Shown piece by piece: positions 1 to 54,081 of a stretch of 64,000 nt of DNA. The notes below the pieces were generated by a model, which saw only the letters and a program-made list of their open reading frames with translations, ran no database searches and was not told the origin of the DNA. The translations under genes and the position numbers were made by a program. The stretch is from Actinomyces dentalis DSM 19115 (GTDB lineage Bacteria; Actinomycetota; Actinomycetes; Actinomycetales; Actinomycetaceae), in the NCBI RefSeq assembly GCF_000429225.1, contig NZ_AUBL01000013.1, positions 1 to 64,000 of the forward strand. The letters run 5' to 3'. Within the stretch, counting starts at the first letter, position 1. The number at the start of each line of letters is the position of its first letter.

Positions 1-3000
1 GCCCTTGCCGTGGACGTACAGGGGGTGGGCTGGAGTGGTCTCCAGGTCGCCGTTGCTGGTGCGGATCCGGATGGTGGGCGTGTGCTCGTGGGTGAAGGTC
101 CTGGTGACCGTGGAGGTGGTGGGTTGGCCGGTGTCGGGGTCGGTGCAGGCGACGTGGTCGCCGACGGCCACGTCCTCGATGGGCCTGGTGGTGCCGTCGG
201 CCATGAGGACGGGTGTGCCGGCGGGGAAGCACGCGTCACGGCCCACTGAGGAGACGGCTCCGACGCCGGCTCCCATGGTCCCGCCCATGGCGGCTCCCCG
301 GCCGGTGGCGCCCAGGAGGCCGCCGACGGTGTGGGGGCCTGGTCCCAGCATGTAGCCGGCGCCGCCATCGAAGGCCCCGCCAGCCGCCCCGGAGGCCCCG
401 CCGATGAGGGTGTTGCGGCCCATGGCACCCATGGCGGCCAGGCGGCTGCCGATGGCGCCGGTGCCGCTGGCGGCGGCCCCCAGCAGTCCTTGAGCGACCC
501 CGCCCCCGATGGCGCCTGCGGCGGCTCCCACCAGCCCGGCTCCCAGGACCTGCCAGGGGTTGACGCCCTGGCCGGAGGCGGCCTGCTGGTCGTAGTTCTG
601 CCAGGCGCCGATGACGGCTCCGGTGATGGCCCCGCCCGCGACCGGTCCCAGGAACGCAGTCGCCAGGCCCCCGATGACGATGCCGGCGGCGACATACTTC
701 CAGTTATTGGCCAGCCAGCTGCCGGCTGCGGCCAGGCCGGTGGTGTGCGCCTCGTTCCACGCCTGCAGGTCCGCGTCGCTCAGCGGCCTCAGGCCGGTGG
801 GGTCGGACAGGTTGACCGGGTCGTTGCCGGCGTAGGAGTACGGGTTGCCCGCCCAGCCGGCTCCCAGGACCGGCTCGAGCGGGTCGGGTGAGAGCAGGGA
901 GTGTGTGGACGGGTCGTAGACGCGTGCGCCCAGCCACGACAGGCCGGCCCCGCCACCGGGCCGGCCGCCGCCAGCTCCGCCGGGGCCCGGCTCCCCGGGC
1001 AGGGTCAGGGTCCCGGTGCTGGTGACCCCCAGGCCGCCCAGGCTGGGGCCCGGCGCACCGGTGCCCCACGGGGAGGCGGCGGCGTCGTGACCGGCGCGCT
1101 CGGGCAGCAGCCACCCGCCGCCGGGCCCACCGGTGCCGGTGCCGACCCCGGCGACGGCGGTGACGGGCACGTGCCCGACCTGCGCCAACTCACCCCAGGC
1201 GGTGTCCCACATGACGCCCTGCCCATCGACGCCAGCCAGCTCACCCAGGGTGTCGACGTCCAGGGTGTGGGTCGACCCGGGCGCCCCGCCGCCGTCGGTC
1301 GTATCGGTGTAGGCGGCCAGGAACCCGCGCGGGTCCCAGGTGAACTCTCGCCTGCTGGTCCCGTCGTCCTGGCTGACCCGCCGCCCCGCAGCGTCGTAGG
1401 TCAGGACCTGTCGACGCGCCCCACCACCGTCGGCGCCCGCGCCAGCGCGACCGGTGGCGCCGGCATTATGCGCCGGGTCGTTCCCAGCGTCGGTGATGGG
1501 GTTCTTGGTGTCGGTGGTCGTGGTGGTCAGCAACTGACCGGCCGCGTCATAGGTGTAGGTGGTGACGATCCCGTCGCTGTCGCCGGCCTCCAGGCGGCCC
1601 AGGGCGTCCCAGGTGTAGGTGGTGGTGATGCCCTCGTCGGTGACGGCACGGGTCAGCTGGCCGGCCGCGTCGTAGGCGAAGGCGGTGCGGATCCCGTCCA
1701 CGCTCTGGGCGGTCACGCGCCCCTGCTCGTCGTACTCCAGGGCGGTGGTGCGCACGAACCCGTCCCGCACCACCTTGTGAGCGACCACGCCGTGGGGCCC
1801 CAGGTCCAGGTGGCCTCCACCCCGGGCGCGACCGCCCGCGTCACACGCCCCAGCCAGTCCCGCTGAAGGTCCAGGCGCCCCAGGGCCGGGTGCTCGACCG
1901 CCGCCAGCATCTCGTCGGCGTCGTAGACGTAGCGGGTCACGGACCCGTCCGGGTGGGTCATGGATGTGCGCAGCCCGTCCGCGTCATAGGTCCACCTGAT
2001 GGTCTGGTCCCCGCGGCTGCGGGAGACCAGGTGTCCCATGGCGTCCCAGGTCAGGGTGTCCGTGCGGCCGCCGGGGCCCGTGGCGCTCCAGGTCCGCCCG
2101 GCTATGTCCCGCACGATGCTGGCGATGGTCTCCGCCCCGGCGTCCTGCCCGACGGCGTCGCCTCCCTGGTCCTCCAGCCCGCCGGCTGGTCTGCTGATGA
2201 CTCGTTCCAGGCGCCCGGCGCTCCCGTAGGCCCAGTCCAGGATCCCGGTGGCGTCCGCGCGGCTGGTCACGCGTCCGGCCGCGTCGTACGTGTAGCGGGT
2301 GGTGCGCCCCACCTGGTCCGTCATCGCCCTCACACGGCCCATGGAGTCATAGGTGCAGGTGCGCCTGCCCCCGGCCGCGTCGACCATCGCCACCCGGTGG
2401 CCCATCCGGTCGTACTCGAAGCGCGTGACCGCCCCCAGGGCGTTGGTCACCGACACGAGCTGTCCGGCGTCGTCGTAGGTGAACCTGCGCAGCCCGTACC
2501 AGGCGTCGCGCACCGAGGAGATGCGCCCGCACTTGTCGTAGGTGAACCAGGTGGTGCCCCGGCCCGGTTCCACCCTGCGGGTGATCCGCCCGCACACGTC
2601 GAAGGTTGTGGACACCTCCTGCCCATCGGGCCAGGTCTCACCCACCAGGCGGGAGTCGGAGTCGTAACGCATCTCGTAGCGGCGCCCACCCGTGGAGATC
2701 GTCGCCACCCACCGGCCCAGGTGGTCGTACTCGTAGGAGAACGACGCCCCCGACGGCTGGGTCACGCGCACCACGCGACCCGCGGCGTCGCGCTCCAGGC
2801 GCGTGCACCCGCCGTGCTCATCGACGCGCTCGACCACACGACCGCACGCGTCACGCACCAGCGTCGAGGTGGTGCCGTCCGCGTTGACCGCCCCCACCAT
2901 GCGACCCAGGGCGTCCCAGGTGGCACCGACCTGCGAGTCGGCGTCGCGCGCCAGCGTGGGCAGGCCCAACGGCCCGGACTCGAAGTCCTGGACCACACCC

Positions 3001-5606
3001 GTGGGGTCCACCGTCCGGGCCAGGTCCCCATTGGCCGTGTACTCCAGGACCGCCCGCGCTCCTGTCGGGTCCGTCACGGAACGCAACCGCGACAGCGCGT
3101 CCCACCCGAACTGCCAGGACGACCCGTCCGGCAGTGTCGCACCGGCCTTGAGCCCCAGGTCGTCATAGACCGTTGAGATCACCCGGCCCACCGCGTCAGT
3201 CGTGGACTCCTCAGCCCCGTGGTCTCCATAGGCGACCTCGGTACGGCCCCCGGCCGGGTCCACCAGCGTGCACAGGCGCCCACCGGGCGTGTACTCCCAC
3301 CGCCACAGGGCGCCGTCGGGGTCGCGGCGGTGGGTGAGGTTGCCCGCCTGGTCGTAGCGGTACTGCGTGCGGTGGCCCAGGGGGGTGGTGGCGGCGGTGA
3401 TCTGTCCCCGGGCGTCGCGTTCCAGGCGCGCGGTAGCCCCGTCGGCGTTGGTGGTGGCGATCAGGTCGCCGCGGTGGTCGTAGGTCAGGTCCAGGCTCAC
3501 GCCCACCGGGTCGACGACCCGCACCAGCAGCCCGTGGTCCCATTCCAGGTGGGTCAGGCCGCCGCACGGGTCCGTGATGGTTGTGGGGTTGCGGTCAGCC
3601 CCCTGGTAGGCGAATGTCGTGACGCTGGGGGCGGCGTCCGGCTCGGGGGCGACAGTCACTCGCACGACCCTGTCGGCCTGGTCGTAGTCATAGGTGGTCC
3701 GAGCCCCGGTGGGCTCGACCCGCATGGTCAGGCGGGACCGCTGGTCGTACTGGTTGATGGTGCGCTGCTTGTCGCGGGCGGTGACCATGACCTTGTTGCC
3801 CCACCGGTCCCAGATGACCGACTGGCGTGCCCCGTCGGCGTCGACCATGCCGACCAGACGGCCCCACCGGTCGTAGATCCACGTGTTGGCCCGGCCCCCG
3901 TCCTCATCGGCGACCTGCGTGACCCCACCGGGCAGGTAGGTGTAGTGGCTGACCCGCCCGAAGGGGGAGCGCTGTGTGAGGACCTGGCCGGCCTGGTTGT
4001 AGGTGTTATCCACCTCCACCACGCCGTCGGCGTCCACCACCCGGCGCACCCGCCCGCCCTCGTCCCACTCATAGCTGCGGCGCCCGCCCTCGCGCTCCAC
4101 ACCCACCAGCCGCCCCGAGGCGTCATAACGGTACGACACCTGCCGCCCGTCGGAGGCCTCCAGGCCCGCGATCCGGTCGGCCTCCTGGTCCCACACCACG
4201 GTGACGCGCCCGCCGCGCTCATGGGCCAGGCCCACCAGCCGCCCCGCCTGCCAGACGTAGTCCACCCGGCTCCCGGCCCCCGTGCACGTCCATGCCAGGC
4301 GCCCCGAGGCGTCGAACACCCACCGGCCGCCGGCGTTGTCCGACACCACCAGCCACTCGTCGCCGGCCGGCCCAGCGGCGTCGCCTGGCCCGCCGTCGTC
4401 ACCGCCGGCACCGGCAGCGTCGCCGGTGCCGGCGCGACCGGCGTCGCTGGTGCCGTCGTCGGCCGGCTTCAGGTGCTCGAGCCACAGGGCGTCACCCGTG
4501 GCCCGCTCCCAGCCTGTTCCCAGGCGGGGGAAGACCACGTGCCGCCCTGAGGGGCGCACCCACCTCGCCCCCTCCTCGTCCAGGACCAGGCGCTCGTCAG
4601 CGCACGAGGCCCACCCCGGCCCCAGGGCCCCCACACCGTCCAGCACCGAGTTGTAGGTGCGCGCAAACCCCAGCGAGGCCAGGCCGCCGGTGAAGCCCAG
4701 GTCCACCTCACGCTCCACGAAGTTGCCCGTCGTGGTGTTCACCGGGTCATCGGCGTACCCCGAGGTCTGCGGGTCCCCCGCGATCCGCGGGGACGCCACA
4801 TCCAGCGGCCTGCGACCACCCACGACCCCCTGGGCCGTCAGGGAGGCCTCCATCGCGGCGTCCGACACGCTCACGATCCCATCGCCACCAGCGGCCTCGA
4901 AGGCGGAGGCGACCGCCCCCACCCACGTCACCTCACCAGAGTTGTTCGAGATGAATGACGCCAGGGCGCTGGTGATCCCCGAGGCGTCCACGGAGCACCA
5001 CGAGCACAACGACGCGAACGAGTCCAGCGCCGACTCCAGCCTCCCCTTGCCCGTGGACACGTTCTCGCTGGCCCCCGATAGGTTCGAGGCGTACGTGCGC
5101 AGGTCCGACGGCCTGGCCGACGACACCGCACCAGCCGCCCCCGGCGCCGGCTCCGCCCACGTCGAGACCACCGGCTCATGAGGCTCGGGCAACGGTACCG
5201 GAGCCGGGCCGGCAGGCGGCTTGTCCCCGTCGGTCAACCAGTCCCACCCCTGCTTGAACAGGTTCTCCTCGTCCTGACGGTCCGCCCACTCCTTGGCCAC
5301 CGCCCGACGCCTCCGCTCAGTCGCGGCCGCACTCTTCAGCGCCCGCACCTCACTGACCAGGTCATCCAGAGCGGCCGAGATATTCGTACAGTCCTCCTGG
5401 CCCGCCTTGGCGCCAGAGTCGAACACGTCCCCGTAATGACCCTCAAAATCAGCCGACGCCGTCGACGCCCACACTCCCACATCCGACCCCATCGTCGAGA
5501 TCGTCGACGACAAGCCCGACGCCGCCGTAACCAGAGCATCCGCCGTCGCGTCGTCAAACACCACCGGCTCGTTATACGCCCCCAGATCATCCTTGCACGA
5601 ACCCAC
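1..5606 (-). CDS. RHS/YD-repeat polymorphic toxin with PT-Hint domain, partial, frameshifted
   Basis: Runs off the left edge, about 1868 codons visible. I chose the GTG at 5606: it is preceded by CCTGGGGG and followed by a plausible N-terminus (GSCKDDLGAYNEP). Residues 1-130 are a helical WXG/LXG-like region, suggesting type VII-style export (inference). A DUF6531-type segment (DPVNTTTGNFVEREVDLGF) starts near residue 285, then dozens of YD repeats (RYDASGRL, TYDQAG), then an RHS core motif (NPYSYAGNDPVNLSDPTGL) near plus position 800-850. A Gly/Ala-rich stretch follows, then a Hint domain (CFPAGTPVLMADGT; TPAHPLYVHGKG) at about 1-240. Hint domains usually autoprocess and release the C-terminal toxin, which lies beyond position 1. 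The reading frame changes at 1794-1801. Upstream of it codons read EATWTWG; downstream GPHGVVAHKVVRDG continues in another frame that is open to the edge. Either a true indel or a sequencing error. Confidence 0.85.
1794..1801 (-). other. Frameshift point in the RHS gene at a G4C4 tract
   Basis: The RHS frame upstream stops at 1713 after a nonsense tail, while a second frame from here to position 1 has no stop and encodes the rest of the RHS core and Hint domain. Adding one base in the GGGGCCCC tract would give TWTWGPHGVV, a normal RHS sequence. This fits slippage, phase variation or a read error. Confidence 0.7.
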
Positions 5607-16559: not shown

Positions 16560-16630
16560 GCGGCGACGGCATGACGAGGCGAGGCTGGTGGGACTCATGA
16601 GGCACTTGGGGTCGGCTCGAGTGCGAGACG

Positions 16631-16750
16631 TGTCCGAATCTGTTGCAAAGGCGCTCCGGACCAGGATTGGCCGCGAGAAGAAGCGCGGAATATCAACGAT
16701 TCTCCTCGCGCGTTCCGGCGCGATCGGGGCCTTTGCAACAGATTCGGACA
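16631..16750. repeat. 120-bp palindromic element, family 1, copy A
   Basis: Perfect 22-bp terminal inverted repeats (TGTCCGAATCTGTTGCAAAG.. at 16631-16652 and its complement at 16729-16750). The interior conserves GAGAAGAAGCGCGGAATAT and TCAACG with the second copy at 53769-53888, which is also exactly 120 bp. Non-coding and able to fold along its whole length. Could be a MITE or a regulatory RNA hairpin. No target duplication seen. Confidence 0.85.
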
Positions 16751-16752
16751 CC

Positions 16753-17370
16753 GGGATTATTCCGGGTGCGTCTGAGCGCGTCTCCCGATGTGATGCAAGG
16801 GGTTGTTGAGGGCGGTGGGGCGTGGGGGTCGGTCGTGATGGTCCGTCCGAGTCGCCCCCGGGTGCGCTGCTCGTGCAGCTCGACGGCCGCGTCGTTGTAG
16901 ATGGCCGCCCCTGGGTGCGCTGGGGGCGCTGGTCGCGGCGGAATCGGCCGGGGTGATCGTCGGGGGCGGTCCGGGCGGCGTCGGGGGCGGTTCGGACGGC
17001 ATCGGGGGCGGTTCCGGCGCCCCGCCCCGCCGGTTGTCCCGCATGGTGGGACAGCGTCTCGCATGTCGTGACGACGCCGGTTCGCGAGCACGTCACTTAA
17101 CCCGCGAGATCGTCACTTAACCCGCGAGCACGTCACTCTGGCAGACGTGCTCGCGGGTTAAGTGACGATCTCGGCGGTTACCCGACGATCTCGCGGACCG
17201 CGGCGGGGTGCGTCTGGGTGCGTCTCTTAGTGTGGTGGCAATTCCCGCGGGGCCCTCGGCGTCGAGGGGGGTCCGTCGGCCCGTGAGGGCGGCGGGCATC
17301 GTGGGAGCCCTGTTCCTCAGCCAGATTCACAAGGAGAGCACCGCCATGAGCCCGCCGGATGATAGCCTTC
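16753..17370. mobile_element. Mosaic repeat element with GATTATTC/GATAGCCTTC ends (third, most decayed copy)
   Basis: The left end (GGGATTATTC then GGGTGCGTCTGAG) matches, in reverse, the right end of the element at 53641-54398. The right end (AAGGAGAGCACCGCCATGAG ... GATAGCCTTC) matches the right end of the element at 39629-40102. Inside it carries a GC-rich degenerate stretch (16800-17040), the conserved CCCGCATGGTGGGAC block and the 20-bp-unit palindrome at 17085-17193. No transposase. Boundaries are inferred from the comparison and are the least certain of the three copies. Confidence 0.5.
17085..17193. repeat. Palindromic array of 20-bp units, core CGTCACTTAACCCG, copy 1
   Basis: Units CGAGCACGTCACTTAACCCG (17085-17104), then CGAGAT.. 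(17105-17124) and a partial third. After the 9-base loop ACTCTGGCA (17135-17143) the same units run inverted (17144-17193). The central inverted repeat is 30 bp and perfect. Each unit is CGAG, two variable bases, then a fixed 14-base core. A second copy is at 39814-39922. Confidence 0.85.
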
Positions 17371-36351: not shown

Positions 36352-37533
36352 GTGACCTGGCCGATGTGGACGACCCGCACCCTGCCCTGGGTGCCGCGCA
36401 GCCGGGGACCGCGCGCCGATCGCACCCTGACGAGTTACCGAGCCGCCGTCGCCCCGCGCATCGCCCATTGCACGCCGGCGCCGGGGGAGCCCGTCCAGCG
36501 GGCCGTCGAGGAGGCCTCGCTCGCGCTCGCCCGGTTCGAAGGCGCTTCGACGCGCGGCGGCACCGTCCTGGCGCCGATCGCGGACCTCCTCATGCGGGGC
36601 GAGATGGTCGCCTCCTCCAGGATCGAGTCCGTCAACGCCCCCCTCGACATGGTTGCGGCCGCCTCGCTCGGCGTCCGGGTTCATGTCAACGCCCGCCTCG
36701 TCGCCGCCGCGGGGGACGCGACCCGCGCACTCAGCGACGTCGCGGACCGGCGCCACCTCGAAGCGGATGATCTTCTCTCGGCCCACAGAACCCTCCTGGC
36801 GCCGCTCGCGGCCGACGTCGAAGAACAGGTCGGTCGTCTGCGCAGCGTCCAGAACTGGATCGGCGGCTCCGACTACTCGCCCCGCGGCGCCCTCCACGTC
36901 CCTCCTCCCGCCGATGAGATCGCCGCCGACGTCGACGACCTCATCGTCTTCCTCCGGCGACAGGACCTTCCCGCCCTGGCGCAGGCCGCCATCGCCCACG
37001 CCCAATTCGAGGGCATCCACCCCTTCGTCGATGGGAACGGGAGGGTGGGGCGCGCGCTCATCCACGCCGTTGTGCGCAGGCGCGGCCTCACCCGGCAGGT
37101 GACGGTCCCCGTCGCCGCCGCGATGATGGCCCAGGGGGAGCGGTACACGCGCGCACTCGATCTGTACCGCGCGGGCGACCCCGACCCCATTATCGAACTC
37201 GTGGCCCGGGCGGTCGGCCGCGCCACCGCGGCCGCGCAGGAGTCCAGCGCCCGGATTCTGGCACTGCCCGAGGCGTGGCGCGCCCAGACGGACGTACGAC
37301 GGGGATCCGCCCAGGAGCGGCTGCTCGACTCTCTCCTGGAGCATCCGGTCCTGGACGCCGAGGATGCGCAGGCGCTCACGGGTGCGTCGTCGTCGGCCAC
37401 TTACGGCGCTCTCGACCGCCTGGTGGCCGACGGCGTCCTGCGCATCGCCGTGGCGCGCAAACGGGACCGGGTCTGGGTGGCGGCGGCGGTGATCGACGAG
37501 GTCGAAATCCTCCTCGACGCCCTGGCCGAGTAG
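36352..37533 (+). CDS. Fic family protein with C-terminal winged-helix domain
   Basis: 393 residues. Order: an N-terminal Fic_N-like region with a possible inhibitory motif (SSRIESVN, residues about 87-94), the Fic core with HPFVDGNGRVGR (His near residue 223), and a C-terminal winged-helix segment (LDAEDAQALTGASSSATYGA). Fic proteins transfer AMP or related groups to protein hydroxyls. The intact motif suggests an active enzyme, kept in check by its own inhibitory helix. GTG start at 36352 with GAGAGGAGG 8 bases upstream. The operator-like repeat before it and the DNA-binding tail suggest autoregulation. No separate antitoxin gene. Confidence 0.85.
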   Translation: MTWPMWTTRTLPWVPRSRGPRADRTLTSYRAAVAPRIAHCTPAPGEPVQRAVEEASLALARFEGASTRGGTVLAPIADLLMRGEMVASSRIESVNAPLDMVAAASLGVRVHVNARLVAAAGDATRALSDVADRRHLEADDLLSAHRTLLAPLAADVEEQVGRLRSVQNWIGGSDYSPRGALHVPPPADEIAADVDDLIVFLRRQDLPALAQAAIAHAQFEGIHPFVDGNGRVGRALIHAVVRRRGLTRQVTVPVAAAMMAQGERYTRALDLYRAGDPDPIIELVARAVGRATAAAQESSARILALPEAWRAQTDVRRGSAQERLLDSLLEHPVLDAEDAQALTGASSSATYGALDRLVADGVLRIAVARKRDRVWVAAAVIDEVEILLDALAE

Positions 37534-37570: not shown

Positions 37571-37645
37571 CCGCGAACGCGCAGGTTTCCAGTCGAACGC
37601 GCGGGCGGGAGGAGCGCGTTCGACTGGAAACCTGCGCGTTCGCGG
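37571..37645. repeat. 32-bp perfect inverted repeat of 20-bp units between convergent genes
   Basis: Arms 37571-37602 and 37614-37645, 11-base loop. Read as units: CGAACGCGCAGGTTTCCAGT (37574-37593), a partial second unit, then both inverted (37623-37642). It may act as the shared terminator of the Fic and DUF885 genes, but the 20-bp unit design matches the arrays at 17085, 39814 and 53973. Confidence 0.75.
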
Positions 37646-39813: not shown

Positions 39814-39922
39814 CGAGCACGTCACTTAACCCGCGAGATCGTCACTTAACCCGCGAGCACGTCACTCTGGCAGACGTGCTCGCGGGTTGAGTGACGTGCT
39901 CGGCGGTCACCCGACGATCTCG
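39814..39922. repeat. Palindromic array of 20-bp units, core CGTCACTTAACCCG, copy 2
   Basis: Units at 39814-39833, 39834-39853 and a partial third, loop (CTCTGGCA region), then inverted units 39873-39922. Same layout and same length as 17085-17193, with substitutions including a changed variable dinucleotide (inverted CGAGCA here, CGAGAT there). Confidence 0.85.
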
Positions 39923-40000: not shown

Positions 40001-40026
40001 CGAGATGTGTACTTCGCCCTCGAGAA
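40001..40026. repeat. Decayed 20-bp unit of the second array type
   Basis: CGAGATGTGTACTTCGCCCT (40001-40020) followed by CGAGAA matches the units at 53973-54081 in spacing and most bases. Confidence 0.55.
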
Positions 40027-53632: not shown

Positions 53633-53768
53633 ATCGTCAAGGAAGATTATTCGGTGGGCCCTCTTCACCAGGAAGATCCCCGGATCGGCCGGGATCGGCG
53701 CGGTGACGGGGCCGGGCGGGCGTGGGGTGGTGCTGGTGGGGCTCCTGGGACTATCCGGGGCGGGGGCG

Positions 53769-53888
53769 TGTCCGAATCTGTTGCAAAGGCGCCCCGCGGC
53801 GGGATCGGCGGCGAGAAGAAGCGCGGAATATCAACGTTTCTCTTCCGGCGTTTCGGCCCGATCCGGGCCTTTGCAACAGATTTGGACA
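53769..53888. repeat. 120-bp palindromic element, family 1, copy B
   Basis: Terminal inverted repeats TGTCCGAATCTGTTGCAAAG.. at 53769 and the complement ending 53888 (one mismatch, TTTGG for TTCGG). Interior GAGAAGAAGCGCGGAATATC and TCAACG identical to copy A at 16631-16750. Same length, so the whole element is conserved. Confidence 0.85.
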
Positions 53889-53972: not shown

Positions 53973-54081
53973 CGAGACGTGCACTTTGCACTCGAGCGAT
54001 GCATTTTGCCCTCGAGAGGTGCGGTTAGAAGTGCCCGCTCGAGTGCAAAATGCACGTCTCGAGAGCAGAATGCACATCTCG
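53973..54081. repeat. Palindromic array of 20-bp units, core of the GTGCATTTTGC type
   Basis: Units CGAGACGTGCACTTTGCACT (53973-53992), CGAGCGATGCATTTTGCCCT (53993-54012), a partial third, a short loop, then inverted units 54042-54061 and 54062-54081. Same layout as the CGTCACTTAACCCG arrays: CGAG, variable bases, 14-base core. Confidence 0.8.

Follow-up and report, generated by a model that had tools for sequence, protein, structure and literature searches.

The window analysed here comprises positions 1 to 64,000 of contig NZ_AUBL01000013.1 of Actinomyces dentalis DSM 19115 (assembly GCF_000429225.1) and contains four palindromic arrays of 20-bp units, belonging to three families (A, B, and C) that differ in their cores, along with one isolated degenerate unit. 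In this work we relate these arrays to a family of genes coding for predicted AbiEi-like/Vsr-type nucleases, which themselves frequently lie between two such palindromes. The features of the window are as follows:

17085..17193, no strand assigned: family A array, 109 bp (sequence read directly)
37574..37642, no strand assigned: family C array, 69 bp (sequence read directly)
39814..39922, no strand assigned: family A array, 109 bp (sequence read directly)
40001..40024, plus strand: isolated degenerate unit of family B, close to the second A array (2 mismatches)
53973..54081, no strand assigned: family B array, 109 bp (sequence read directly)

The family A and B arrays of the window display two direct 20-bp units, a 29-bp centre, and two inverted 20-bp units, with some of the outer units degenerate. 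The first A array, which is intergenic according to a composition-based gene call, has two CGAG-NN-CGTCACTTAACCCG units (starting at 17085 and 17105), a 29-bp centre (17125-17153), an inverted unit (17154-17173), and a degenerate inverted unit (17174-17193). The second has units at 39814 and 39834, a centre at 39854-39882, and inverted units at 39883 and 39903 (the latter degenerate), and the B array has units at 53973 and 53993, a centre at 54013-54041, and inverted units at 54042 and 54062. The C array is formed by one unit, a 29-bp centre with an 11-bp loop, and one inverted unit, and sits between the convergent called gene ends at 37533 and 37678. All four arrays of the original prediction are present in the window sequence, although the C array spans 37574-37642 rather than 37571-37645; likewise, the predicted succession of about two direct units and then inverted ones holds for families A and B but not for family C, with its one unit per side. 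The 29-bp centre, measured from the inner CGAR to the inner YTCG and common to the three families, is an addition to that prediction.

A genome-wide search, as the original prediction had suggested, recovered many further arrays. The strict grammar (CGAR-N16-CGAR-N21-YTCG-N16-YTCG) occurs at 127 places in the 3.53-Mb genome from which the window comes (hereinafter G000), and its reversed pattern, used as the control, at none. Half-site matches in this genome number 116+98 for family A (up to 2 mismatches), 46+52 for family B, and 35+34 for family C (both up to 3 mismatches), again with reversed controls at 0; given these many matches and empty controls, the arrays are not a product of chance. 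Across the genomes searched, the grammar was detected in 20 of 99 (G000 included) and in 5 of 41 genera, with every reversed control at 0. The matches number 127 in G000, 138 in its close relative G015, and 1 to 9 in each of the remaining 18 genomes. Most of the 20 positive genomes have cores unlike A, B, or C, and the sole match in G027 is of the B type; the matches in L097 and L098 (L numbers denote individual DNA stretches), which lie outside the genus, have mismatched arms and a chance-like appearance. Hence, the cores do cluster into families, many different cores share the grammar within the genus, and the 20-bp spacing, on which the original prediction had staked itself, is retained in the further copies. 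CGAR itself is not universal, and other families hold the 20-bp head-to-tail spacing with other anchors.

Family A arrays have up to four units per arm. With no spacing rule imposed, the distance between the starts of their innermost forward and reverse units is 49 bp or exceeds 49 bp by a multiple of 20. The variable pair of full A units is CA in 71, AT in 51, and AA in 1 of 123 unit matches (up to 3 mismatches; window and L039-L078, 41 sources). The C arrays of G000 and G015 are near-invariant across their 69 bp. The sequence outside the arrays is mostly unrelated, with some A copies sharing longer surroundings that have a B array behind them. Read directly, the arms measure about 29 bp or more and the loops 9-11 bp; as with REPINs, the inverted doublet is able to form a hairpin and has many intergenic copies.

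In several genomes, the palindromes enclose or adjoin a gene whose product, of about 340 aa, is predicted to combine an AbiEi-like region with a Vsr/homing-endonuclease-like nuclease domain. G008 has a 355-aa reading frame enclosed by two arrays, and the homologue on contig 16 of G000 (341 aa) lies between two C arrays. The gene in L196 (G000) occupies 2460-3485 with arrays ending at 2393 and starting at 3587, leaving no room for a second gene between them. In G015, a homologue (L230, 1977-3026) is found between two A arrays, and that of G030 is split by an insertion sequence and ends about 30 nt ahead of an array. Besides the C-flanked homologue, G000 has a second strong one, located on contig 10 and flanked by two identical palindromes that belong to a fourth family, and four weak ones. 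A search with a profile of three sequences recovered homologues in 91 of 99 genomes. The PADLOC AbiEi models matched four proteins with best E-values of 2.8e-9, 1.7e-7, 8e-6, and 0.0042, and Pfam AbiEi_1 matched only 2 of 28 at E <= 0.1. The nuclease domain has the fold and the acidic active-site residues of Vsr-type PD-(D/E)XK nucleases, these acidic residues being invariant among the homologues. No relative of the nuclease was recovered from viral contigs searched with alignment A3, and one protein searched at E 1e-5 had no match among PLSDB plasmids. Plain DUF559 (PF04480) was rejected as the partner, as its single match in G000 was weak and had no array nearby. The gene seems to be adjacent to dnaE in L196 (G000) and L197 (G030), judging from the neighbouring frames. 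In both G000 (contig 28, L257) and G015 (L258), yet another palindrome family (GCTGCGTTTGCTACA...) adjoins a weak homologue; the contig 28 homologue was rejected as a partner of family B, for although it has a B and an A array nearby, the palindrome on its other side is a different one.

The association between gene and palindromes extends beyond the families of the window: palindromes lie beside 36 of the 49 homologue loci inspected, including in genomes without the CGAR grammar. We scored the best alignment of the left against the right 500-bp flank of each locus and found a matching pair, at a cut-off of 25, in 32 of 47 homologue loci versus 0 of 151 control genes (others of at least 250 aa; maximum score 16). 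Such flanking of a gene by two inverted copies of a palindrome is the arrangement typical of repetitive extragenic palindromic (REP) sequences and their REP-associated tyrosine transposases (RAYTs). Two loci with short flanks and one duplicate had been excluded, and three of the 47 are rows of the search profile. Left and right flanks drawn from different loci reach this score in 12 of 600 draws, in which we take the matching pairs to be orthologous loci. The thresholds of 20, 25, and 30, inspected after the fact, gave 35, 32, and 28 of the 47 loci, no controls at any of them, and 16, 12, and 12 of 600 cross-locus draws. A direct repeat at an offset of 20 is seen in 17 of 34 non-redundant gene-side palindromes (families A and C plus a few plain hairpins among them) versus 0.42 in letter-shuffled arms, and none of the other offsets from 8 to 31 exceeds 3; the other half lack the offset-20 repeat at the chosen stringency. 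Since the anchors vary between families, it is the spacing and not CGAR that is the constant.

We then compared the flanks of 25 gene loci with fetched CGAR arrays (e.g., 54 distinct ones from G000 and 31 from G015), setting aside close kin that share a family (G000/G015; G008/G043/G019). About a third of these loci (8 of the 25), from G000, G015, G008, G030, G024, G004, G020, and G019, match the scattered arrays of their own genome best. For instance, the flanks of the C gene score 67/65 in their own genome versus at most 21 elsewhere; G024 gave the least distinct match (51/49 versus 35/39), and that of G030 is on one side only. Among the other 17 loci, the flanks in L208 (G024) match arrays of G021 better than those of their own genome. 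Scattered copies were also sought for one other family, CACGAGTTTTRGAGGTNTGC, chosen from gene flanks, which occurs in 5 of 49 genomes with 29, 26, 35, 15, and 4 half-site matches (controls 0). It encloses a homologue gene in four of the five, as the choice ensured, so the informative part is the presence of scattered copies in these genomes and their absence from the other 44. Palindrome similarity tracks that of the proteins (36 loci; Spearman 0.25; Mantel 0 of 2000): of the pairs whose protein similarity exceeds 0.8, 12 of 18 have palindrome scores of at least 30, versus 1 of the 612 pairs below that value.

Relatives were compared for the site of the gene and for their arrays. The gene occupies the same site, matched on both sides, within some subclades (L270/L271/L272/L282; L268/L269; L283, L285, and L286), and in the other locus comparisons one or both flanks are unmatched. 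Five arrays of G000 fall within a 77-kb stretch colinear with G015, which shares one of the intervals and is without three of the arrays; in a second interval, the A array of G015 is near a contig end and aligned on one side only. G015 has an A array in the interval matching 17085..17193, with different surrounding sequence, and has no strict-grammar array at the place corresponding to 39814..39922. It lacks the C array at 37574..37642, with about 115-125 bp missing there, and the B array at 53973..54081 along with about 750 bp around it. Both of these aligned indels are larger than the array and have no clear target duplication. The site of the A-flanked nuclease of G015 is taken up in G000 by an A array and a different gene, a small frame (L012, contig 6) that we take to be VOC/glyoxalase-like, with no significant trace of the nuclease in this one gene-less allele. 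The A array shared between L061 and L168 has its central loop in opposite orientations in G000 and G015. An A array of G000 (L003, contig 2) and a C array of G015 (L161) seem to occupy the same intergenic interval, as if some gaps were reused.

Taken together, the arrays are probably satellite palindromes of this AbiEi-like/Vsr-type nuclease gene family. Their architecture, the gene-palindrome pairing, the scatter, the presence or absence between close relatives, and the retention of the acidic active-site residues are observed, and from these sequence features we infer binding, cutting, and movement by the nuclease. The gene would typically be boxed by two palindromes of one family, with solo copies scattered through intergenic DNA. 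The protein, presumably as a multimer, would bind head-to-tail half-sites 20 bp apart (about two helical turns) on each arm, and would nick or cut the DNA at the palindrome or next to it. Solo arrays could then spread as the cut palindrome is repaired or copied, by analogy with what has been proposed for RAYTs and REPINs, while the gene would mostly stay put and be vertically inherited. The idea of the original prediction that the shared grammar reflects a common replication, recombination, or protein-binding mechanism is supported, with the palindrome-flanked nuclease family as a concrete candidate; the partner gene is the new element.

Several observations weigh against this proposal. The G000 assembly contains no family A gene, though A is the commonest family there, and no partner of family B was found in G000 or G015; these arrays may have outlived their partner, the partner may have been missed by the draft assembly, or the arrays may be retained for another use. 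A matching flank pair at score 25 is wanting in 15 of the 47 homologue loci, and the loci are related by descent, so the counts are not independent. Similarly, 17 of the 25 gene loci do not match the scattered CGAR arrays of their own genome best, as is expected if they belong to other families, which their palindromes suggest. The co-divergence signal could come from shared descent alone, and the active-site lysine is retained in 21 of 30 homologues. The C-array indel exceeds the 69-bp array and has no clear target duplication. Finally, the family A variable pair is independent between the arms: in the first unit of each arm, the 50 A arrays of G000 have AT/CA 13, AT/AT 13, CA/CA 13, and CA/AT 11 times.

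An alternative that we regard as unlikely is that the arrays are operators bound by the AbiEi-like protein as a regulator of its own and other genes, the copies having been spread by unrelated transposases or recombination and kept as regulatory sites. The AbiEi profile matches and the half-sites spaced 20 bp apart, which suit a multimeric DNA-binding protein, are consistent with this, as is the absence of arrays from called genes (0 of 71, one at a stretch edge; genes called with a purpose-made caller using codon-position GC). However, the palindromes occur behind the stop codon as well as ahead of the start, the nuclease acids are invariant, and the arrays of low-copy genomes favour convergent gaps (17 of 39 versus 59 of 352 gaps of at least 69 bp), where promoters are not expected. 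This convergent and 3'-end placement would rather suit terminators or RNA hairpins that were multiplied because they end transcripts or make them more stable, and the C arms are complementary, with the same outer anchors on both in 33 of 35 arrays (16.2 expected). Yet we hold this to be improbable: a T-run typical of intrinsic terminators is absent within 12 nt of either array end (0 of 156 arrays; background 10 of 780), placement in the G000/G015 stretches is less biased (convergent 7 of 32), the A variable pair is unpaired across the arms as often as paired, and the nuclease gene between palindromes is left unexplained. The RNA hairpin as sole function was rejected on the unmatched A pair and the lack of T-runs.

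It is very improbable that the arrays are REP/REPIN elements mobilised by a Y1 (HUH) tyrosine transposase. They do share the outline given in the RAYT reports, namely an inverted doublet, many intergenic copies, and a gene flanked by two copies (PMC2817692, PMC3116915), but PF01797 (E <= 0.001) was matched in none of the 49 genus genomes, G000 included, and in 3 of 99 overall, with 5 of 14 control genomes positive; a Y1/HUH transposase was accordingly rejected as the partner. We give as little credence to an origin as miniature derivatives of an ordinary insertion sequence, such as the element, presumably IS256-like, whose end is found immediately to the right of each A array in the window (at about 17208 and 39954). 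In L100, the same end stands ahead of the start of a transposase-like frame, but the exact end motif, in one orientation and within about 220 bp, is beside 2 of 50 A arrays, and the array flanks are otherwise mostly unrelated. This element was therefore rejected as the general carrier; its end in the other orientation was seen by eye beside at least one more A array.

RAYT and REP are the best-known example of a dedicated enzyme paired with palindromes dispersed through bacterial genomes. By analogy with them, the best reading of the arrays would be a RAYT-REP-like pairing with an unrelated enzyme. The likeness extends to a gene flanked by two inverted palindromes of the same family, extragenic dispersal, an inverted doublet that can form a hairpin, and the joint divergence of repeat and protein; the enzyme here, by contrast, is AbiEi-like with a Vsr-type PD-(D/E)XK domain and not Y1/HUH (PMC2817692, PMC3116915). 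The GT(A/G)G head (GTAG/GTGG) of REPs is also absent, the ends being CGAR in A, B, and C and other ends elsewhere, and the arms, unlike those of REPs and REPINs, often have head-to-tail half-sites 20 bp apart. The palindromes would work like REPINs but lack the enzyme and the tag of that family. The CGTC-tagged REPs are likewise palindromes dispersed between genes and not accompanied by an adjacent RAYT, and apparently have no dedicated enzyme according to their authors; they differ in their stems of 8-9 bp and loops of 4-5 bp, as opposed to arms of about 29 bp or more, loops of 9-11 bp, and a candidate enzyme here (PMC3733652). The Vsr-like homing endonuclease I-Bth0305I (PDB 3r3p) differs in that no intron or intein was seen here and in that the present gene sits between palindromes that also occur as solo copies. 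AbiEi antitoxins of type IV toxin-antitoxin systems differ in lacking the fused nuclease, and within the array-bounded interval of L196 there is no second gene that could correspond to the AbiEii nucleotidyltransferase toxin of the AbiEi operon.

Two further sets of repeats were noted. The inverted-repeat family GTGTCCGAATCTGTTGC, with arms about 90 bp apart, occurs in the window at 16627-16745 and 53766-53883, in both cases no more than about 500 bp from an array, and part of it is also present in G015. Repeats are visible by eye in the flanks of Nocardioides, Marmoricola, and Occultella homologues, without a control of their own; direct and inverted repeats adjoin the distant Occultella/Nocardioides homologues in L287, L291-L294, and L296 (no control).

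Among the literature matches listed, which cover titles and abstract openings and few subscription journals, we found no earlier description of a nuclease-palindrome pairing. We lean towards the view that the satellite palindromes and their nucleases represent a second, independently evolved enzyme-palindrome partnership, in which AbiEi-like/Vsr nucleases, by recognising half-sites at a 20-bp spacing, would each maintain or spread a palindrome family of their own, the recognised sequence and the protein co-diverging across Actinomyces and possibly other actinobacteria. If so, the pairing of palindromes with a nuclease whose fold is unrelated would suggest that such partnerships arose more than once. 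It could also assign a function to the AbiEi-like/DUF559-like genes found in most of the genomes surveyed, and would offer many natural pairs of a nuclease and a long, divergent site in which to study how DNA specificity changes.
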